26,125 nt of DNA from a virus, in IMG/VR virus record IMGVR_UViG_3300020392_000070, positions 1 to 26,125 of that record; one strand, written 5' to 3'. The translations under genes and the position numbers were made by a program. Positions 8,532 to 26,125 of this stretch are shown here, in pieces; positions within the stretch are counted from its first letter, which is position 1; every line of letters starts with the position of its first letter. The notes below the pieces were generated by a model. That model was given only the letters and a program-made list of their open reading frames with translations. It ran no database searches and was not told the DNA's origin.

Positions 8532-9302
8532 ATGGCAAAAAGAAAATTTAGAATTGATACTGGTTATTACGGTGGTGAATGTGTAATAGGTGAAGTTTCA
8601 AATGAGTTTGTAACTAAAACTGTAGATATGGACCCAAGCGAATTAGTTGACACAGTTTTATCATTTGATAACTGGGGCGGTGACGAAGACCTCGACGAGA
8701 ATGCAGAGCACGATGATCCAGAACAAATTCCTGCTCCTAGAGATGATTATTACATGTGGGAATGCGACGACATAGAGCATATTAATAGTGCATACGGTGA
8801 TTCCGAATTTACTGTTTACGAAGTTCCAGCAGATGGCTCAGATGATTATGACCATGAAAACGAAGTTGGTACTTTTGCTGGTATTCATATGTATGGCAGA
8901 GAAGGCGGATACTTTGGTCAAGAAGCACCTGATATGATTTGCCAAGAGGATAGCGAAGGAAATATGTATGTGCCTGTGTTAGCATTTCACAGTTGTGAGA
9001 AAGGCACCTTTGCTAGTTACTTTGTAGAAACAGATGGAGAAGACTTTGATAGATACAAATTAGGCATGGGTATTGTAGAAACAAACCTAGGAGAATTTAT
9101 TGATAAAGTGTACTATAACAAGGTCGAACTTGATGCAGAATACGACTATAATGATACTACCGGTAAAAGTTATCATGCAGAAGTTGGCTGGTTAAATAAG
9201 AAGTGGCATGACTCAGAAGCAGATTTTGATGAACTCGACGAAGACTTTTTACTAGAGTTTGATGAAAATGTTAAGTGGGAAAAAGAGCAAAACGAGGTAT
9301 AA
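8532..9302 (+). CDS. Highly acidic protein, 256 aa, unknown
   Basis: The function is not recognised. By my count Asp plus Glu make up about 27% of residues, in clusters such as GGDEDLDENAEHDDPEQ and DSEADFDELDEDFLLEFDEN. The N-terminus (MAKRKFRIDTGYYGGECVIGEV) is ordered and slightly basic, and a Gly-rich central part (GTFAGIHMYGREGGYFGQE) suggests a folded beta domain. AAGGAG 5 nt before ATG gives strong translation. The stop overlaps the next ATG (TAATG at 9300-9304). Such acidity in an early phage protein could mean a DNA mimic or host-enzyme inhibitor, but that is speculation. Confidence 0.75.
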   Translation: MAKRKFRIDTGYYGGECVIGEVSNEFVTKTVDMDPSELVDTVLSFDNWGGDEDLDENAEHDDPEQIPAPRDDYYMWECDDIEHINSAYGDSEFTVYEVPADGSDDYDHENEVGTFAGIHMYGREGGYFGQEAPDMICQEDSEGNMYVPVLAFHSCEKGTFASYFVETDGEDFDRYKLGMGIVETNLGEFIDKVYYNKVELDAEYDYNDTTGKSYHAEVGWLNKKWHDSEADFDELDEDFLLEFDENVKWEKEQNEV

Positions 9303-10078
9303 TGAGAGTATTAATATTTGGATTGCCAGGAAGTGGCAAAACATATTTGGCAGAACGTTTAGTTGAATACTTAGGTGACAAAGTTGCCTGGTTCAACGCA
9401 GATAAAGTTAGAGAAGAAGCAGACGATTGGGACTTCTCTGAAGAAGGTAGATTAAGACAAAATCAACGCATGATTGATTTGTGTATAAATGCTGAATTGG
9501 AAGGCAAAATAGCAATAGCAGATTTTGTAGCACCATTTGAAAGTGCTAGAAATAAATTCTTTGCTGACTATGAAATATTCGTAGACACAATAGAAGCAGG
9601 TAGATTTGAAGATACTAACAAAGTATTTGAAAGACCAATGGCAACAGATTACAACGTTCGCGAACAACGTGGCGATGTAGATGCTAAAATAATTGCTTAT
9701 GAACTTGGACAAAGATTTATATGGGATAACCAAGCACCTACTACACAAATGCTTGGAAGATTTCAACCTTGGCACCCAGGACACCAAGCACTATTTGATA
9801 GAGCATTGGCAAAACACGGACAAGTGTTTTTAATGGTGAGAGAGATGCCAACAGATGAAAAGAATCCTTTTCCAGTACATGAAGTTGTAGAAAACTTACA
9901 ACAAAGTTTACACAAATTTGCTGGCAAGGTAAAAATACAAGTTGTACCTAACTTGTTAAACATAACGTATGGTAGAGATGTTGGATATAAAATTGAGCAA
10001 GAAGTTTTTGACGATACTATACACGATATCAGTGCTACTAAAATACGTGAACAAATGAGAGAAGAAGGAAAATTATAA
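9302..10078 (+). CDS. Bifunctional APS-kinase-like / nucleotidyltransferase fusion
   Basis: 258 aa from ATG 9302 (start MRVLIFGLPG). An in-frame ATG at 9275 would add nine poorly conserved residues inside the upstream gene. N-terminal domain (1-~135): P-loop kinase with Walker A GLPGSGKT (7-14). FNADKVRE (31-38), DFSEEGRLRQNQRMIDLC (44-61) and ADFVAPFESAR (73-83) follow the adenylylsulfate (APS) kinase pattern. C-terminal domain (~148-258): HxGH-type nucleotidyltransferase with GRFQPWHPGHQALF (152-165) and ISATKIRE (243-250). It is nearer in size and motif to NadM/cytidylyltransferase-type enzymes than to full ATP sulfurylase. The kinase-then-adenylyltransferase order resembles animal PAPS synthetase. 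The substrate is unproven: PAPS synthesis, NAD metabolism or activation of a sugar/alcohol all fit. Confidence 0.8.
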   Translation: MRVLIFGLPGSGKTYLAERLVEYLGDKVAWFNADKVREEADDWDFSEEGRLRQNQRMIDLCINAELEGKIAIADFVAPFESARNKFFADYEIFVDTIEAGRFEDTNKVFERPMATDYNVREQRGDVDAKIIAYELGQRFIWDNQAPTTQMLGRFQPWHPGHQALFDRALAKHGQVFLMVREMPTDEKNPFPVHEVVENLQQSLHKFAGKVKIQVVPNLLNITYGRDVGYKIEQEVFDDTIHDISATKIREQMREEGKL

Positions 10079-10535: not shown

Positions 10536-11639
10536 ATGACATATCAATTTACAAGTGAAAGTGTTTCAGAAGGACACCCTGATAAAATATCCGATCTAAT
10601 ATCTGATAGAGTTGCAGACTATATACTTGCTGGTAATGACTCACATAGAGCGGCAGTTGAAACATTAGTTACAACAAATATGGTTACAATAGCAGGAGAG
10701 TATAAAAGTACTGTACCAATTAATAAAGAACACATTGAAGAAATTGTAAGAGGTGTGGTTAGAGAAATTGGATATGAGCAGGAAGGCTTTCACTGGGAAC
10801 ATCTAAAAGTGTATAACGAACTGCATGGACAAAGTCCAGACATAGCATTGGGCACTGATAACTTTGGTGCAGGAGACCAAGGACTCATGTTTGGTTATGC
10901 CTGCAAAGAAACACCAACGTATATGCCTAGTGCAATATATTATAGCCATAAAATTTTACAGTACCTTGCAAGTGAAAGACGTATATCCTATTCTTGGTTA
11001 GGACCTGATAGCAAATCACAGGTTACAATGGAATATGATAGTGTTAATAATCCAGTAAGAGTCAGTAAAGTAGTCTGTAGCAGTCAGCATACAGAAGAGT
11101 TTACATTAGACGCAGTCAAAGATGGCATAAAAGAATTAGTGATCAAAGCATTAGAAGAATCAGATGCACCTATTGATGATGATACCGAATATTTAATTAA
11201 CCCTACAGGCAAATTTGTAATAGGAGGACCTGATGGAGATACAGGACTTACTGGAAGAAAAATTATTGTTGATACTTATGGTGGGTATGCTCCACATGGC
11301 GGTGGTGCTTTTTCAGGTAAAGATTGCACTAAGGTCGACAGATCAGCGGCATATATGGCACGATATTTGGCAAAGAACGTTGTAGCATCAGGCCAAGCAG
11401 ATAATTGTACAGTACAACTAAGTTATGCTATTGGTGTAAAAGAACCAACTAGTGTTTATGTTTATGCTGACGGTGAAGTTAGAGCCGACATAGCAGATAT
11501 ATTAAGAGATAGAGTTGACTTAACTCCAAAAGGCATAATAGACAAATTCGATTTATTTAATATACAACTTTCAGATACAACAAACTATGGTCACTTTGGT
11601 AAAACTCTTTTACCATGGGAACAAGTTGATCTGTTTTAA
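10536..11639 (+). CDS. metK: S-adenosylmethionine synthetase
   Basis: Makes S-adenosylmethionine from methionine and ATP in the cytoplasm. The 367-aa sequence is close to full length (E. coli MetK 384) and appears intact. It begins FTSESVSEGHPDKISDLISD (residues 5-24), with the ATP-binding GHPDK, then has GTDNFGAGDQGLMFGYA (106-122) and the signature GGPDGDTGLTGRKIIVDTYG, then GGYAPHGGGAFSGKDCTKVDRS (249-270). All main catalytic blocks are present, so activity is likely. It is phage-encoded, inside an early-type operon, and the stop overlaps the next start (TAATG). Likely roles are supplying SAM for phage DNA or protein methylation or for polyamine synthesis; no methyltransferase is visible in this window. 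Confidence 0.95.
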   Translation: MTYQFTSESVSEGHPDKISDLISDRVADYILAGNDSHRAAVETLVTTNMVTIAGEYKSTVPINKEHIEEIVRGVVREIGYEQEGFHWEHLKVYNELHGQSPDIALGTDNFGAGDQGLMFGYACKETPTYMPSAIYYSHKILQYLASERRISYSWLGPDSKSQVTMEYDSVNNPVRVSKVVCSSQHTEEFTLDAVKDGIKELVIKALEESDAPIDDDTEYLINPTGKFVIGGPDGDTGLTGRKIIVDTYGGYAPHGGGAFSGKDCTKVDRSAAYMARYLAKNVVASGQADNCTVQLSYAIGVKEPTSVYVYADGEVRADIADILRDRVDLTPKGIIDKFDLFNIQLSDTTNYGHFGKTLLPWEQVDLF

Positions 11640-18840: not shown

Positions 18841-19110
18841 ATGTCCTTAAATCGCAGATCAATTTTAGATGAACTAAATTCGATAGTCTCAGATAGAGAC
18901 AAACTCAATGTTATCGAGTCTAGAGGTAACCACATTATAAAAAGTGCATTAAATTTAATTGAATTAATTCAAGAAAATTTTGATGAGCAAGAAGCATTAG
19001 ATTTGCAACGTAGGTTAATTAATTCTATAAAAGGAAATAGACCTGAAAGATTTATCAAGGGCATCAGTATCATAAAAGAATCAAGGTCTAAATCCAATGA
19101 AGATAAATGA
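18841..19110 (+). CDS. Small helical late protein, 89 aa, unknown
   Basis: Starts MSLNRRSILDELNSIVSDRD, continues IIKSALNLIELIQENFDEQEALDLQRRL, and ends in a basic/Ser-rich tail. It looks all-helical with amphipathic segments, and I recall similar short hypothetical proteins in marine T4-like phages. It has a good RBS and a late promoter. A scaffold, prohead-core or assembly function is possible from context only. It overlaps the next gene by 14 nt. Confidence 0.7.
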   Translation: MSLNRRSILDELNSIVSDRDKLNVIESRGNHIIKSALNLIELIQENFDEQEALDLQRRLINSIKGNRPERFIKGISIIKESRSKSNEDK

Positions 19111-20020
19111 AGTAGTCATTTTTGAAGTTGACGACGACACTCAAGCAAAGCGAGATGCTTTTGCTGACATGGACAACAAAAAGAAAAAGAAATTAAAATG
19201 GAACGAAATTGTTGCAAATCCGGATTTAACAGATCTTGAGTTTGATGTTGACGGCGTAGATTATAAAGGTTACATAGATAATAAAAAAAATATTTTCTTT
19301 GTTTATGACCAAGCATTAAACGACTTTGTACCAGCAGATCGCAACTTTACTAGAAGAGCATTTGGTAAAAATATATCAGCAAGAATAAAAAATCTATTAA
19401 ATTTTAAACCAGGTGGTATGGAATATATTAAAAACTTTTTTAGTTTTGATAATAGAGGCGATCCTTCTTTACCAGGTGCTGGTCAGGCCGCTAAATCTAC
19501 AAACATTGGCGGTGTTATAGGTTCGAGAGTTGGCGGACTTATAGATAGAGGTATAGCCAAATTACGTGGTAAAAAACAAGACAAAACAATGCAACAACAA
19601 ACTGCAGGAATTTGGAAAACTGTATATGGAGTAAATCCTCCAGTGGCAGGTGATATAATAAGATTTAAAACTGCAGATGGCAAAGTTGTCGATGGAGAAT
19701 TTGTTACATTAACACCAAGCAATCTTAGTGTAGATAACGACAATGACGGTGTACCAGACATTTTGGTAAAAGCACTATATAAAGATAAAGATGGTAAGCC
19801 TCTTAAGAGTCAGACTCAACATCCTGTGGCAAACACCAACATTATATCAGTAAACGGTAAGCCACTCAAAAAAATTGCGGCACCACCTGATAGACCAAAA
19901 AATCAGCCAGGTAGCGGTCAAACAGACTTAGGAGATATAGGTCTCAAACCACAACGTAGAAGCGACTTAGGTAATACTGGTACATTAGGAGGACCTGCTA
20001 GAGATCTAGGTGCTATATAA
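19097..20020 (+). CDS. Late protein with capsid-targeting-like N-terminus and Ca-loop-like motif
   Basis: 307 aa, unknown function. The N-terminus MKINEVVIFE|VDDD resembles a T4 internal-protein targeting peptide with an I-x-E site for the prohead protease (cleavage after E10). The body is charged and Gly-rich (GGVIGSRVGGLIDRGIAKLRG, residues 138-158). Residues 213-221 read DNDNDGVPD, a calcium-binding loop like those of thrombospondin type-3 or dockerin repeats. The C-terminus is Pro/Gly-rich and probably disordered. There is no good Shine-Dalgarno; its start overlaps the upstream gene, so coupling is likely. Packaging into the head is a hypothesis based on the N-terminus shared with neighbours. 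Confidence 0.7.
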   Translation: MKINEVVIFEVDDDTQAKRDAFADMDNKKKKKLKWNEIVANPDLTDLEFDVDGVDYKGYIDNKKNIFFVYDQALNDFVPADRNFTRRAFGKNISARIKNLLNFKPGGMEYIKNFFSFDNRGDPSLPGAGQAAKSTNIGGVIGSRVGGLIDRGIAKLRGKKQDKTMQQQTAGIWKTVYGVNPPVAGDIIRFKTADGKVVDGEFVTLTPSNLSVDNDNDGVPDILVKALYKDKDGKPLKSQTQHPVANTNIISVNGKPLKKIAAPPDRPKNQPGSGQTDLGDIGLKPQRRSDLGNTGTLGGPARDLGAI

Positions 20021-21288
20021 TGAAAGCAGTAGATCTTACAAAAGGATACTTGACTGAATGCACAATCTATCATAGATTGGACGAAAATAAAAATACTCAT
20101 CTAGAACACTTAGAAGATTTAATCTTCAATGACGGCTTACCTGGTGGACAACAAGCAATTAACTATCTTCACAGTTTCCATGAAATGTTAAAAGGAAGTG
20201 CTAAAACCAAATTTAATCTAACAACAAAATGGGATGGTGCACCTGCAGTATTTGTAGGTACTGATCCAGCAGACGGTAAATTTTTTGTAGGTACTAAAAG
20301 TATCTTTAACAAAAGAGACCCATTAGTAAATAAAAGCATAGAAGATATCAAAGCAAATCATGAAGCAGAAGGATTGCAAGAAAAACTAATTAGTGCATTT
20401 ACACACTTGCAAAAACTTAATTTCAAAGGCAAAGTTATACAGGGCGACTTACTATTTACAGACGACAGTATTACCGATGCAAATATCAAAGGTCAAGATT
20501 TCATTGTGTTTAAACCTAACACAATAATTTATGCTATACCAAAAGATAGTGAATTAGCAAAAAATATTTTAAGAGCCAAAATTGGTGTTGTATTTCATAC
20601 CGAATATGTAGGAGGTCCTACACTTGCAGACACAAATGCTAAATTTGGTTTTGATGCAAGTACTTTAGGCAACAATCCAGATGTATGGTATAGAGATGCT
20701 ATTATTAGAGATTATTCAGGACAAGTAACATTTACTCAAGACGAGTCCGATAAGATGTCAGAACTCATAAACAATGCAGACAGTAATTTAAAATCAGTAA
20801 AAGATTTAGACTTTCTTAAAAACAATGAATTTGGCGAGGATCTTAGAAAAAGAATTAAGACAAGTGTAAATGTGATCATGAAAGAATTAACAGGTTTTGA
20901 ACAAGATCCTAAAGTATTTGCAGAAAGATTTATTGCAGAATACAAAGGCTTTATGAAAAAAGCAATAGATAAACTTAGTAAGCCAGAAAATCAAGTTAAA
21001 AAAACACAATTAATGTTAGACGGAATAAAATTTTTAGAAGATAATCAAGAACAAATAGAAAAAGCATACATTGTATATCTAGATTTAATCAAAGCAAAAG
21101 AAATGATTATAAATAAATTAACTAACATAAAGCAAATAGACACATTTGTACAAAACGCAGAAGGTGACTATGACGTTACTGGAGAGGAAGGTTTTGTTGC
21201 TGTGGATCGCATAGGCAACGCAATAAAATTAGTTGATAGACTTGACTTTAGTGTTAAGAACTTTGGTACAGGGAAACCAGGAGCATAA
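20020..21288 (+). CDS. KxDG nucleotidyltransferase/ligase-like late protein
   Basis: 422 aa. The N-terminus MKAVDLTKGYLTE|C looks like a capsid-targeting peptide (L-T-E at 11-13). NTHLEHLEDLIFNDGLPGGQ (25-44) follows. The core motif is KWDGAPAVFVG (70-80), matching motif I (KxDG) of the DNA/RNA ligase and capping nucleotidyltransferase superfamily, with K70 as candidate adenylation lysine. FFVGTKSIFNK (88-98) is next. Then KVIQGDLLFTD fits motif III (GE, here GD) and GQDFIVFKPNTIIYAIP motif IV. The C-terminal third is helical. It is probably the DUF6267-type family seen in marine T4-like phages (from memory). Enzyme activity and in-virion location are inference. Stop overlaps the next start (TAATG). 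Confidence 0.7.
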   Translation: MKAVDLTKGYLTECTIYHRLDENKNTHLEHLEDLIFNDGLPGGQQAINYLHSFHEMLKGSAKTKFNLTTKWDGAPAVFVGTDPADGKFFVGTKSIFNKRDPLVNKSIEDIKANHEAEGLQEKLISAFTHLQKLNFKGKVIQGDLLFTDDSITDANIKGQDFIVFKPNTIIYAIPKDSELAKNILRAKIGVVFHTEYVGGPTLADTNAKFGFDASTLGNNPDVWYRDAIIRDYSGQVTFTQDESDKMSELINNADSNLKSVKDLDFLKNNEFGEDLRKRIKTSVNVIMKELTGFEQDPKVFAERFIAEYKGFMKKAIDKLSKPENQVKKTQLMLDGIKFLEDNQEQIEKAYIVYLDLIKAKEMIINKLTNIKQIDTFVQNAEGDYDVTGEEGFVAVDRIGNAIKLVDRLDFSVKNFGTGKPGA

Positions 21289-22063: not shown

Positions 22064-22651
22064 ATGCGAATAGACGAAGTAATAGTAAAAGAAATAAGCC
22101 AGCAACAGCAAGATGCTTTAAAGCAGATGCGTGATATTCACGTGCAACGTAGAATGAAAGGCATTGGTACAGATACCAGTACTTACGGTTCGCAAATTGG
22201 ACAATCTGTTGGTACAGATGTGGAAGTAGGCGACTTAACCAACGTTGCTAGAGCAGGAACAAAAGATACTGACATTGCAAAACAGGATACTAATAAAAAA
22301 TCAGATGGCAAAAAAGACACAAGTAAACAGGCCACTGACGTAACTCCGACTTCTGCACAATTGAGAAGAGATGCTCAAACTCAAACATTAAGAGGTAAAA
22401 GCAGAGGCATGGCAAGAAGCGATGAGCCAGGTGGTGGTAGAGTTGGTGCTGATGGTAGAAAATTAAAACATCAAAGATATTATTCAGATCAACCATCCGA
22501 TTTACAAGATTATGATTCTATTATACCCGATTTTATCAATCTAAACAAAATGGGCAAAACTGCTAAAAAATATGCATCTAATTTTGTCCGAGACCCTTCA
22601 AAAACTATGGCGGACCTACGTTATAAATTCAAAGATTTACTTCAAAAGTAA
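22064..22651 (+). CDS. Hydrophilic, probably disordered late protein (195 aa)
   Basis: N-terminus MRIDEVIVKE|ISQQQQDALK is close to that of the 19097 protein (MKINEVVIFE) and looks like a capsid-targeting peptide. The middle (~45-130) is low-complexity, with Gly, Thr, Asp, Lys and Gln (GTDTSTYGSQIGQSVGTDV and similar), ending with Arg/Gly-rich sequence. The C-terminus is basic and helical (KTAKKYASNFVRDPSKTMAD). The late box at 22051 sits 5 nt before ATG with no RBS. Unknown function; a DNA-associated internal head protein is plausible. Confidence 0.65.
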   Translation: MRIDEVIVKEISQQQQDALKQMRDIHVQRRMKGIGTDTSTYGSQIGQSVGTDVEVGDLTNVARAGTKDTDIAKQDTNKKSDGKKDTSKQATDVTPTSAQLRRDAQTQTLRGKSRGMARSDEPGGGRVGADGRKLKHQRYYSDQPSDLQDYDSIIPDFINLNKMGKTAKKYASNFVRDPSKTMADLRYKFKDLLQK

Positions 22652-22708: not shown

Positions 22709-23086
22709 ATGGCATTAGTAGGACTAAGTCAAGCAAATCCAAACAGAGTAGATGAAGAAAAATTCTTCATTGGAAAAAACCTTACATTTATTGACGTAGA
22801 CTTTGGCGCGGCTGTAAACGGTTCATTAGGACCAGCAGGTGCAGTTGAGGCAGTATTTGAAGCAATTCAAGGTGAAGGTTTTAACATCTTAGGTCATGGC
22901 GCACTTCACAGCACAAACGCAAATATGAGTTTTATGCTTGAAGGTGAGTATGGTGCAGATACATATGATGGTTCAAACAGTGAAACAGTAGCGGCTCACT
23001 TAGAGGACGTAATCATTGCATTAGGTACAGTTGATTCAATCAACTTGGCATCAGCAACAGTTGCCGCAAAAACCTTTGTACTATAA
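22709..23086 (+). CDS. Small probable virion protein, cassette 1 (125 aa)
   Basis: Starts MALVGLSQANPNRVDEEKFF. The composition is Gly/Ala/Asn-rich and beta-like (FIDVDFGAAVNGSLGPAGAV, GHGALHSTNANMSFMLEGEY), without Cys and with few basic residues, typical of abundant virion proteins. It ends LASATVAAKTFVL. It has its own late promoter, strong RBS and strong terminator, so it is probably a highly made single-gene transcript. A decoration, tail-tube or neck component is possible; no family is recognised. Confidence 0.75.
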   Translation: MALVGLSQANPNRVDEEKFFIGKNLTFIDVDFGAAVNGSLGPAGAVEAVFEAIQGEGFNILGHGALHSTNANMSFMLEGEYGADTYDGSNSETVAAHLEDVIIALGTVDSINLASATVAAKTFVL

Positions 23087-23110
23087 GATTTGTAGACAAT
23101 TTTCAAAATA

Positions 23111-23139
23111 AAAGAGGGCGACCAGATCGCCCTTTTTTT
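23111..23139 (+). terminator. Intrinsic terminator after cassette 1
   Basis: AGGGCGA (23115-23121), 5-nt loop CCAGA and TCGCCCT (23127-23133), followed by a run of T (to 23139). A-U extension of the stem is possible at 23111-23114. A classic GC stem with U-tract in otherwise AT-rich DNA. Confidence 0.9.
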
Positions 23140-23149
23140 ATGACGTTTT

Positions 23150-23157
23150 GATAAATA
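23150..23157 (+). promoter_or_regulatory. Late promoter GATAAATA, cassette 2
   Basis: Second copy of TTTTGATAAATAAAAGTAAC (23146-23165). The leader is about 54 nt and contains the AT dyad AATAATTTTAAATTATT (23171-23187) and AGGAG (23201-23205), 6 nt before ATG 23212. Confidence 0.7.
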
Positions 23158-23211
23158 AAAGTAACCAAGTAATAATTTTAAATTATTACACACGAATAGT
23201 AGGAGATTAAC

Positions 23212-23556
23212 ATGGCATTAATTAATGGAATCGGAAGAGCAGGCGGTGCCGTCGCTAACGACCAGATGTTAACCGCAGAACTTAATCATTTTATTGTAGC
23301 GGCTGGAACAGGTGTTGATTTAACTGATTTTGGTTACACCAATGGGGCTTTAGATGCCGGCGAGAAGGCAGTATTTGCTTTAATGAGCGTCGCAAACCCA
23401 GTAATCATTTCACCACATGCTTCTAACACAAGAATCATGTATTACTCAACAGAAGTACCAGGTGTAACTGCAACTTCACTGCAAACAGCCTTACAGGCTT
23501 CAGGTGGAAACCTAGCAAACGCAACAGTTACAGCAGGAGCATTAGCAGTAGTATAA
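23212..23556 (+). CDS. Small probable virion protein, cassette 2 (114 aa)
   Basis: Starts MALINGIGRAGGAVANDQML. Rich in Ala, Gly, Thr and Val with beta-strand pattern (ELNHFIVAAGTGVDLTDFGY, VANPVIISPHASNTRIMYYS) and ends LANATVTAGALAVV, similar in spirit to the end of the 22709 protein (LASATVAAKTFVL). Codon use is slightly more GC-rich than neighbours (GCC, GCG, GTC). It is probably a small capsid or tail surface protein and may be a distant paralogue of the preceding gene. It is flanked by its own promoter and terminator, implying high late expression. Confidence 0.75.
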   Translation: MALINGIGRAGGAVANDQMLTAELNHFIVAAGTGVDLTDFGYTNGALDAGEKAVFALMSVANPVIISPHASNTRIMYYSTEVPGVTATSLQTALQASGGNLANATVTAGALAVV

Positions 23557-23582
23557 TAAAATAAGTTCAAATTAACTTTTTT

Positions 23583-23610
23583 AAACCCCCTTTTCGAAGG
23601 GGGTTTTTTT
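23583..23610 (+). terminator. Strong terminator with TTCG tetraloop after cassette 2
   Basis: CCCCCTT (23586-23592), loop TTCG and AAGGGGG (23597-23603), followed by seven T (23604-23610). A-U pairs can extend the stem. The UUCG loop is a stable tetraloop sequence (here closed by U-A rather than the most stable C-G). Confidence 0.92.
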
Positions 23611-23647
23611 ATGGCTTTAAAAATAAATCATAATATACAGCGAAAAT

Positions 23648-23655
23648 GATAAATA
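23648..23655 (+). promoter_or_regulatory. Late promoter GATAAATA for 23684 operon
   Basis: GATAAATA is followed by CGGAG (23674-23678), 5 nt before ATG 23684. Conventional late layout with a leader of about 20 nt. Confidence 0.65.
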
Positions 23656-23683
23656 TGCTATAACAGGAACACACGGAGACATT

Positions 23684-24088
23684 ATGGCACAGACAAAAGC
23701 AGGTGGGTTAGTAACTTCAAGTGAAACACTAACAGGAGATGTAGAATTTTTTACACTCTTTACCACAGTAGACATAACTGCCACATCAAATTTTACAGAC
23801 AATACACAAAAAGATTTTGAAAGTGTAGTACAGGTTATTAGTTTGAGAGCACAACCTATGCTTATGAACACACCTATAGTAGTAGACGGTACTTCGGCAG
23901 GACTAGAAGACTACGGTGCACCAACTTTAACTGGTGCGGGTTGGGTGTTTAAATTTGCATTTGAAAGACAAGGTGCTCATACACTAGACACATTGAAAGA
24001 CGAACTAAATGGTATCGTTTTAAATGGCGGTACAATTGATACAAAAAGTTCCAAAAATATGGAATTTTCTAAACAGGATGTATTGTAA
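23684..24088 (+). CDS. Probable virion structural protein (134 aa)
   Basis: Starts MAQTKAGGLVTSSETLTGDV. It has many Thr/Ser/Val beta segments (EFFTLFTTVDITATSNFTDN, ESVVQVISLRAQPMLMNTPI) and a mid-protein GAPTLTGAGWVFKFAFERQG. No signal peptide or catalytic motif is seen. Late promoter and composition suggest a small virion component. TAATG overlap couples it to the XhlA-like gene. No family is recognised. Confidence 0.7.
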   Translation: MAQTKAGGLVTSSETLTGDVEFFTLFTTVDITATSNFTDNTQKDFESVVQVISLRAQPMLMNTPIVVDGTSAGLEDYGAPTLTGAGWVFKFAFERQGAHTLDTLKDELNGIVLNGGTIDTKSSKNMEFSKQDVL

Positions 24089-24330
24089 TGGCAGACAAAA
24101 AATTAGATAAAAAACCATCAGAGCAATTATATGCAAATGAACCCGATTTAAAAACTCAAGTTATAGCAGACATGCTTAGAATCGAGCAGGTAACTACTGA
24201 GATAAAAGAATTTAAAGTTGAAGTAAAAGAACATTTTGCAAAAATTGAAAATTGGTTAGTAGGCATTATGGCAGGTGTATTTGCTACAATGTCAAGTTTG
24301 ATAATAGCATTAATATTTAAGTTATTTTAA
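24088..24330 (+). CDS. Coiled-coil plus C-terminal membrane protein (XhlA-like)
   Basis: 80 aa: a charged N-terminus, a heptad-like helix (RIEQVTTEIKEFKVEVKEHF, residues 31-50), then one C-terminal transmembrane span (WLVGIMAGVFATMSSLIIAL, 56-75) ending IFKLF. This is the layout of XhlA-type haemolysin/holin-associated proteins. In a T4-like phage it might take part in lysis or in membrane anchoring of the prohead or virion. It is co-transcribed with virion genes. No endolysin is adjacent, so a lysis role is only suggestive. Confidence 0.55.
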   Translation: MADKKLDKKPSEQLYANEPDLKTQVIADMLRIEQVTTEIKEFKVEVKEHFAKIENWLVGIMAGVFATMSSLIIALIFKLF

Positions 24331-24331
24331 A

Positions 24332-24610
24332 ATGAGAATAGTTGAAGTAGAAGGAGTAATGGAGGCCAAAATGGTCTGGGCAAAGCGAGGCAAGAAGATT
24401 GTCCGTAAAGTCAGATGCACAAGTGGCCCACGTAAAGGCAGAATGGTGTCTAACGCCGGCCAATGCTCTAAACCTATCAACTTAAAAAAACGTATGACGC
24501 TCAAAAAAACAAGAGCAAGAATGGGTAGAAGGATGGCTAGAAAAGCCGCTAGAACCAAAAGAAGAAATCCGGTGAGTAAAAGAGTTGCAAGGTTGAATAG
24601 AAGACGATGA
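24332..24610 (+). CDS. Very basic Arg/Lys-rich late protein (92 aa)
   Basis: N-terminus MRIVEVEGVME|AKMVWAKRG has the same style as MRIDEV.../MKINEV..., with V-M-E then A as a candidate prohead-protease site. The remainder is strongly cationic: KKIVRKVRCTSGPRKGRMVS with two Cys (in RCTSG and GQCSK), then LKKRMTLKKTRARMGRRMAR and ending LNRRR. Such a charge implies binding to packaged DNA, like an internal head or histone-like protein. I recall similar basic proteins in marine T4-like phages. ATGA overlap with the next gene (24607-24610). Confidence 0.75.
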   Translation: MRIVEVEGVMEAKMVWAKRGKKIVRKVRCTSGPRKGRMVSNAGQCSKPINLKKRMTLKKTRARMGRRMARKAARTKRRNPVSKRVARLNRRR

Positions 24611-26125
24611 AGTTAAAAGACCTATACGAATATAATAAAGGAATACAAGATCCTAATTCTAATGCAAGTCAGTCTAAAGACGATGATGCAATGGAGCCAA
24701 TGACTCCTGAAGAAGAAAGAGAAGCGAAGAAAAGTATAAAGCAATTCAAAATTGCAGGTATAAATGTTACTAACCCTAACATGATGGCAAAAGGCTTATC
24801 AAATGTTACCCAAGGTAAGAAACAAACTCCACAACAAGTAAAACAAGCCGATCCTGTTTCTGGTGTACTTGCAAAAATAATATCTAAAAAAGAAAACAAA
24901 CCTTTAAAAATGAGGTTGATGAACATATTCAAACAAGTTCAACAAGGCGATTTAGAAGAAAGTACATTAGCAAAAAAAATATTAAGAAAACTAACAGGTA
25001 AAAAGCCATTAACAAAAATTAAAAAAAGATCCAAACTGCTTAAAGAAGCAGATCCTTTACTATTTGAAATCAACTTTAATCAACGTAGTGTAGCACAGGA
25101 GGCTCTACAGGCTGATATTAGATGTGGTTTTGAGGCAGAAACATTTTGGTTTAGAGCAGAAGGTGGCGGAAGAGTCGACGATATAGACAATATGAGTGTT
25201 GGTGACGTTGAATACGAATACGGTGATTTACCAGATCAAGCATATTCAGATTATAACGATTGGGTTATGGAAAAGGGCATAGACGAATATTTGCCAGACA
25301 TCATAGCCAATTGGGTAGAAGAAAACAGAGACGAAGATTGGGCAATACAAGATTTTATGAGTTCAGACACCGCTCCTACAGATGAAGCGGTAGAAGAATA
25401 TAGAGATGAATTTAAAGAACAAGACCCAACTGAATATGAAAATCGTGAAGAAGACGGTTGGGATATAGACAACTGGACTAGAGATCTAATCAACACAGAA
25501 TACGAATCAGAATATGTAGACTTTCTTTATGACGTAGGGCAGGAAGAAGATCAATTAAGAGATGATGCTGTGGCAGAAGCCGAATCCGATTACTCAATGG
25601 ACGAATGGATTAGTAATGATTGGTACAGTATGAGTTCATTCTTAGATGATTATGGCTATGATTATCCTACTGAAGGAGGCGGAGTTGATGATGTAGCAGA
25701 CATTTTTAATCAGTGGATCAAAAACGACAGTATGTTTAAAGGATATCCTGAAACTGGTGAGTATGGAGAAACTGGAACAACAGATGGCTGGGCAGTTGAA
25801 ACTGATAGTAGTATTGATCCAGATGAAGGTGCAGGTGCTGAACTTATATCACCTGTATATGATACACCAGCAGATATGTTAAAAGATATGAAAAGTCTTT
25901 TTGATTGGAATGATCAAGAAGAAGAGTTTGGCACAAACAATTCAACAGGATTACATGTTACTATGAGTTGGCAAGGCGAAGGTCGAGATGAACCAAACAA
26001 ATTAAAAATGGCACTTCTTGTAGGCGACCAATACTTACTTGGTGAATTTGATAGACTCAAAAATAGTTATACTAAAAGCCAATACAACATATTACTTAAA
26101 TCTGCAGAGGGTATGAAAAGAGGCG
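24607..26125 (+). CDS. Amidoligase-like late protein (partial, runs off right edge)
   Basis: Open from ATG 24607 to the window end (506 codons, no stop). The N-terminus MKLKDLYE|YNKG may be another capsid-targeting peptide (L-Y-E). Residues 1-~150 are basic and probably disordered. Then come amidoligase (glutamine-synthetase-like COOH-NH2 ligase) motifs: CGFEAETFWF (173-182), WAVETDSSI (395-403), AELISPVYDT (411-420) and NSTGLHVTMSW (445-455). In the family these read roughly FGVEIE...W.V..DSS....ELVSP....STGLHVHV. Between the first two lies an acidic insertion of about 215 residues, rich in Asp, Glu, Trp and Tyr. Amidoligases join a carboxylate to an amine using ATP. The substrate is unknown. 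Confidence 0.75.
   Translation, partial: MKLKDLYEYNKGIQDPNSNASQSKDDDAMEPMTPEEEREAKKSIKQFKIAGINVTNPNMMAKGLSNVTQGKKQTPQQVKQADPVSGVLAKIISKKENKPLKMRLMNIFKQVQQGDLEESTLAKKILRKLTGKKPLTKIKKRSKLLKEADPLLFEINFNQRSVAQEALQADIRCGFEAETFWFRAEGGGRVDDIDNMSVGDVEYEYGDLPDQAYSDYNDWVMEKGIDEYLPDIIANWVEENRDEDWAIQDFMSSDTAPTDEAVEEYRDEFKEQDPTEYENREEDGWDIDNWTRDLINTEYESEYVDFLYDVGQEEDQLRDDAVAEAESDYSMDEWISNDWYSMSSFLDDYGYDYPTEGGGVDDVADIFNQWIKNDSMFKGYPETGEYGETGTTDGWAVETDSSIDPDEGAGAELISPVYDTPADMLKDMKSLFDWNDQEEEFGTNNSTGLHVTMSWQGEGRDEPNKLKMALLVGDQYLLGEFDRLKNSYTKSQYNILLKSAEGMKRG

Follow-up and report, generated by a model that had tools for sequence, protein, structure and literature searches.

The window analysed here is the whole of IMG/VR record IMGVR_UViG_3300020392_000070, a marine T4-like phage fragment of 26,125 bases, which breaks off inside an open reading frame (ORF) for an amidoligase-bearing late protein (Table 1). 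The initial annotation described this ORF as uncompleted, which is right in that it runs off the contig, but understates the matter. Complete relatives are 1,799–2,213 aa long and the window therefore holds only the front part of the protein; by this comparison the ORF covers, from the N-terminus, between a quarter and a third of a protein of ~1,800–2,200 aa. The surrounding gene order (gp41-like helicase, leader proteins, DUF6267 protein, small proteins, basic protein, amidoligase gene) is conserved. The window UvsX is closest to those of Sinorhizobium phage Phosso (67%) and Agrobacterium jumbo phage Atu_ph07 (63%), and the DUF6267 protein to those of T4-like cyanophages (about 40%); on sequence grounds, the source phage is of the T4-like (gp20/gp21/gp23-type) lineage.

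Table 1. Features of the window around the amidoligase gene; ↓ marks a predicted cut.
Feature	Position	Strand	Basis
Late protein, leader MKINEVVIFE↓V	19097..20020	+	Leader scan
DUF6267 protein (PF19782), KWDG motif at 20227-20238, leader absent from P-HM2 orthologue	20020..21288	+	E 2.9e-100
Late protein, leader MRIDEVIVKE↓I	22064..22651	+	Leader scan
Small late protein, 134 aa	23684..24088	+	Syntenic family c2; similar protein adjoins SCTP-2 c5 homologue
80-aa protein, C-terminal hydrophobic stretch	24088..24330	+	Syntenic family c4
Basic protein, 92 aa, leader MRIVEVEGVME↓AKMVW	24332..24610	+	Syntenic family c5, 18 loci
Amidoligase-bearing late protein, N-terminal ~506 aa	24607..26125	+	ORF open at contig end
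Predicted capsid-targeting propeptide MKLKDLYE↓, cut after Glu8, motif L-Y-E	24607..24630	+	[LIV]xE leader family-wide
Variable K/R-rich linker/propeptide, ending in predicted prohead-protease site L145-K146-E147↓A148	24631..25047	+	79-sequence alignment
GFEAE, first metal-ligand motif of GS-like fold	25126..25140	+	Residue 174; G, F, E, E 79/79
Acidic insertion, ~215 aa, predicted helical subdomain	25141..25785	+	Constant length/acidity in homologues; model
WAVETDSS (E398, D400)	25789..25812	+	Residue 395; E 78/79, D 79/79
AELISP (E412)	25837..25854	+	Residue 411; E, S, P 79/79
FGTNNSTGLHV region (N444, T447, G448, H450)	25927..25959	+	STGLHV at residue 446; N, T, G, H 79/79
R483...N486, last conserved residues ahead of contig end	26053..26064	+	Homologue alignment

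The basic protein reported earlier as a neighbour of the enzyme is supported; it is a syntenic partner directly upstream. The other neighbour, reported as ligase-like, is the DUF6267 protein, which has the KWDG motif only; a PDB profile search gave no ligase, and DUF6267 as a proven ligase is rejected. KWDG itself is a nucleotidyltransferase-like motif (window 20020-21288; L037:5998-7218, where L numbers denote related viral loci). Between the leader genes and the amidoligase gene lies a row of small (~80–135 aa) MAL/MAQ proteins (window 22709-24088), and their number differs among relatives. Further upstream, the window contains a fusion of an APS-kinase/AAA-like and a cytidylyltransferase-like domain (9302-10078; PF01583, PF01467) and an apparent S-adenosylmethionine synthetase, judged by its SESVSEGHPDK start (10536-11639).

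Relatives of the protein are hard to find with the window ORF as a single sequence. Used in this way on viral contigs it returned none, because the patterns lay mostly in variable parts; alignments of the core solved this problem. A search with the conserved core gave 3 viral loci, a full-length relative as query gave 22, and the family alignment found relatives on 179 IMG/VR stretches. The nearest (L007) is 88% identical across a 106-residue core. In the annotated phage collection the sole match is AUZ94978 of Atu_ph07 (34%, 103 aa). A search of 84,980 prokaryote genomes found no relatives of the protein, and no host can therefore be inferred.

The identification as an amidoligase, and the four ordered motifs on which it was first based (GFEAE, WAVETDSS, AELISP and STGLHV), are borne out, although not by the Pfam match on its own. 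The window ORF scores 22.7 bits against Amidoligase_2 (PF12224), narrowly over the curated cut-off of 22 (24.4 bits in another scan), which taken alone is marginal. Among relatives, Atu_ph07 scores 30.2 and L021 24.8, and only 5 of 15 family members reach E≤0.01 on their own, the other 10 falling short. Chance is excluded because there is homology across the 179 relatives, with near-invariant catalytic residues in 79 sequences and matches between profiles: hhalign gives 96.6% (E 6e-10) against amidoligases of Porphyromonas, Christensenellales and uncultured phages, and 99.2% (E 1.2e-19) against a set from Atu_ph07, SCTP-2 and LR745206. In the 79 aligned viral relatives the metal, ATP and substrate residues (ExE, ExD, E, TGxH, R, ExR) are retained, and none of the catalytic positions is lost. 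In L007 numbering, G187-F-E-x-E191, D412, E424, S427-P428, N456, T459-G-x-H462, K479, R495, N498, E558-x-R560, G563-G and R580 are invariant where present, and E410 is kept in 78 of 79. The order of motifs in this family (ExE, E, E, H, R, ExR) would correspond to that of the glutamine synthetase (GS) active site.

An AlphaFold model built from 15 homologues (mean pLDDT 76) agrees with this fold class. Glutamine synthetases account for every one of its 32 best PDB matches, albeit weak ones (best E 5.1e-3, probability 0.90, low TM-scores) with no PDB match below E 1e-3. Against the viral models in BFVD the top matches are amidoligases, with E down to 2.4e-18; Atu_ph07 is among them, and another entry (647 aa) fits gp124 of Salicola phage SCTP-2 by length. 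Together these comparisons support the reading of the protein as an amidoligase with a complete catalytic residue set, of which the E-F-R motif (E558-R560, L007) lies outside the window and was read in relatives. ATP-dependent amide-bond formation is the predicted activity.

The window protein shares its fold class and ordered catalytic motifs with the GS-like phage amidoligases of PF12224 (Iyer et al. 2009; phiEco32, OM43 phages, Porphyromonas phages). The enzymes from Porphyromonas, Christensenellales and LR745206 are leaderless and only 317–518 aa long, whereas proteins of the window family begin with a leader, contain the acidic helical insertion of constant size (215 aa) and continue for at least ~1,200 residues more. 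AUZ94978 (500 aa) and gp124 and gp125 of SCTP-2 have the domain and an [L/I]xE leader in common with the window protein, and in the case of AUZ94978 and gp124 also an acidic insertion at the equivalent place, but lack the long variable linker and the giant C-terminal part. SCTP-2 has two amidoligase copies in tandem; both gp125 and gp124 (L030:2966-6726) are annotated as hypothetical, and both have IxE leaders and an EYEF motif. In a Christensenellales phage (L033:2191-5048) the amidoligase gene is found near terminase genes and a gamma-glutamyl cyclotransferase.

The acidic insertion of ~215 aa that was said to split the motifs is present. In the window the segment between GFEAE and WAVETDSS spans ~212–215 aa with 31% D+E and 5% K+R, and in 14 homologues the insertion is 214–220 aa long with a D+E fraction of 0.31–0.33. 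Atu_ph07 has 158 aa in the same place and SCTP-2 gp124 a longer insertion (~340 aa) at the equivalent position, whereas the LR745206 enzyme has just a short loop. AlphaFold models the insertion as helices (pLDDT mostly 80–92), and the homologue alignment shows near-invariant Y, P and W positions within it. As modelled, it is a structured elaboration of the enzyme, a conserved helical subdomain. A disordered substrate is rejected given the confident helical model and the constant length and acidity, and the earlier suggestion of a substrate or inhibitory pseudo-substrate finds no support in a conserved subdomain with near-invariant W and P. Our guess is that it most likely binds the substrate or a partner.

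The N-terminus fits the basic region and the possible capsid-targeting peptide that had been suggested for it. K and R make up 21% of the first 150 residues, and the leader, MKFKDVKTLEHLLKEYG, looks like a T4-style capsid-targeting propeptide. In T4, gp21 cleaves after L/I-X-E, and for packaging the N-terminal 10 residues of IPIII are enough (PMC9026906). An [LIV]xE that ends at residues 8–16 is present in every one of the 18 distinct family members inspected (shuffled mean 3.3, max 9), and four other phage amidoligases compared lack such a leader. In a wider set of 48 distinct starts, 45 have it; of the remaining three, two are truncated by the edge of their locus and one has F-L-E instead. 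Leader-like starts, counted with a regular expression composed after the sequences had been seen, occur in 67/187 late genes vs 1/30 upstream genes (shuffled mean 5, max 13), and [LIV]xE alone is present in 6/20 upstream genes too. Two orthologues of neighbouring proteins lack the leader, and their first residues coincide with or adjoin the predicted cut: SCTP-2 gp12 starts MAKLIYGRSG where the window basic protein has VME↓AKMVWAKRG, and P-HM2 PHM2_162 starts MSKNTHLEHLED at or adjoining the cut that its relatives have as LEAE↓GKNTHLEHLED.

A second site of the type L-x-E↓A is found just before the catalytic domain (L in 74/79 and I in a further 4, E in 76/79, following A in 58/79), at the position of the single site in the Atu_ph07 and SCTP-2 amidoligases. 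The window is itself a fragment; a T4-type (S77) prohead protease is encoded by Atu_ph07, by SCTP-2 and by a 250-kb relative. In the last of these, sites of the LxE type occur near the N-termini of the protease (MANKLYE↓YM), scaffold (NFKDLLE↓N) and capsid protein (DVVLE↓N), these names being based on position, Pfam matches and likeness to the T4 order.

The Atu_ph07 homologue AUZ94978 lies two genes from the portal on the opposite strand, and gene order suggests that it is gp196, a position inside CDS 170–215, the cluster that yielded many virion proteins (PMC6102473). In the 250-kb relative the amidoligase is ~70 kb away from the head module, which counts against head targeting. In most relatives, the gene downstream of the amidoligase encodes a protein with a Cu/Zn superoxide dismutase domain (10/11 records, E about 1e-44), in some cases with ParB-like (nuclease) regions. 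These superoxide dismutase genes are found just past the amidoligase at L012:14639-16840, L014:14424-15974, L021:14060-15748 and L010:13645-15735.

What the computations show is the family and its fold, the intactness of the catalytic residues, the leader, the synteny and that related genomes encode the protease; we infer packaging, cleavage, ejection and action in a new host. The reading we consider probable is that of a head-packaged and ejected amidoligase effector, delivered as T4 Alt is but with a different chemistry. The short N-terminal propeptide would target the giant late protein into the prohead core, where a T4-type (S77) prohead protease would cut after [L/I]xE, once at the leader and probably a second time shortly ahead of the catalytic domain. 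The GS-like amidoligase domain would then be packaged along with the genome, making it a predicted component of the virion, and be ejected into the new host, where it may modify a host (or early phage) molecule through an ATP-driven amide bond. This is favoured because the reaction requires ATP, and the new host would supply it. T4 Alt and the internal proteins IPI–III (CTS proteins) likewise have a propeptide ending in L/I-X-E, and a T4-type protease is found in relatives of the window. Alt is likewise an enzyme, but an ADP-ribosyltransferase, whereas the window protein is an amidoligase within a much larger protein whose packaging is predicted only. Another point of comparison is the polyvalent proteins (Iyer et al. 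2017, PMC5512222), which are likewise very large phage proteins with at least one predicted effector enzyme; the ParB-like regions in the neighbour of the amidoligase add to the likeness, while the delivery tag of the window family is T4-CTS-like. Amidoligases have 0 occurrences in that survey. Polyvalent proteins combine two or more distinct effector domains in one chain; in the window family the amidoligase is well supported, and a possible second domain would be the nuclease-like C-terminal one described next.

The remaining ~1,100–1,600 aa of the giant protein have no recognised function, and searches of PHROGs with the giant protein and of PDB sequences with the full L007 protein, the A3 profile and a C-terminal profile gave nothing useful. 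A model of the middle and C-terminal part (L020 897-2090) has a pLDDT of 60 and no PDB match. A C-terminal E..GD..ExK signature is found in 5/5 relatives at ~20% identity, with Pfam and PDB matches that are not significant, and is only a lead towards a nuclease. The pattern G..E - GD - ExK, which is PD-(D/E)xK nuclease-like, lies in L012:13698-14639, with equivalents in L013, L014, L020 and L021. Conserved [LIVM]xE sites number 7, vs ≤4 for 14 other end residues and 5 for E one position nearer, so that the excess of such inter-domain sites is only modestly above control. It is conceivable, though we would not expect it, that the whole is a capsid-delivered polyprotein, in which one leader would take into the head an amidoligase, a middle part and a nuclease of the PD-(D/E)xK type, and these would be separated by the prohead protease at the conserved inter-domain LxE sites before ejection.

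Alternatively, the enzyme may act during assembly, packaged or bound to the core, and cross-link or tag prohead or internal proteins, so that the modified molecule would be the virion. A late gene with a head-targeting leader suits this reading as well, and the cell in which assembly takes place contains ATP, whereas the finished phage head presumably does not. We nevertheless think it unlikely, as the giant accessory protein and the superoxide dismutase and ParB-like regions of its neighbour look more like delivered effectors, and no conserved substrate pair was found. In the literature, the roles suggested for phage amidoligases relate to the envelope or to metabolites, and modification of the infected cell's envelope (peptidoglycan or a surface receptor) that blocks superinfection, cf. 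the phiEco32 amidoligase, is the published proposal (Iyer 2009, as cited in PMC10580990). For the window family this seems improbable: a head-targeting leader is unexpected on an enzyme whose action is confined to the producing cell, and no glutamine amidotransferase was noticed among the annotated neighbours. That the fold is a mere scaffold in a non-enzymatic head or ejection protein would suit the very large size and the long part without recognised function, but is very unlikely when practically all 79 sequences retain the catalytic residues and the linker is free to vary.

Phage amidoligases are already known; what they do is unproven, the usual guess being that they modify the envelope. 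If the form described here is head-targeted, amide-bond chemistry would join the activities of proteins injected at the start of infection, beside ADP-ribosylation by T4 Alt, and T4-like phages might then be suspected of taking over their hosts in part by tagging a host target covalently through amide bonds. From the leader one also gains a rule by which head-packaged proteins within this uncultured lineage can be listed, and the cultured relatives Atu_ph07 and SCTP-2 make the head-targeting idea testable.
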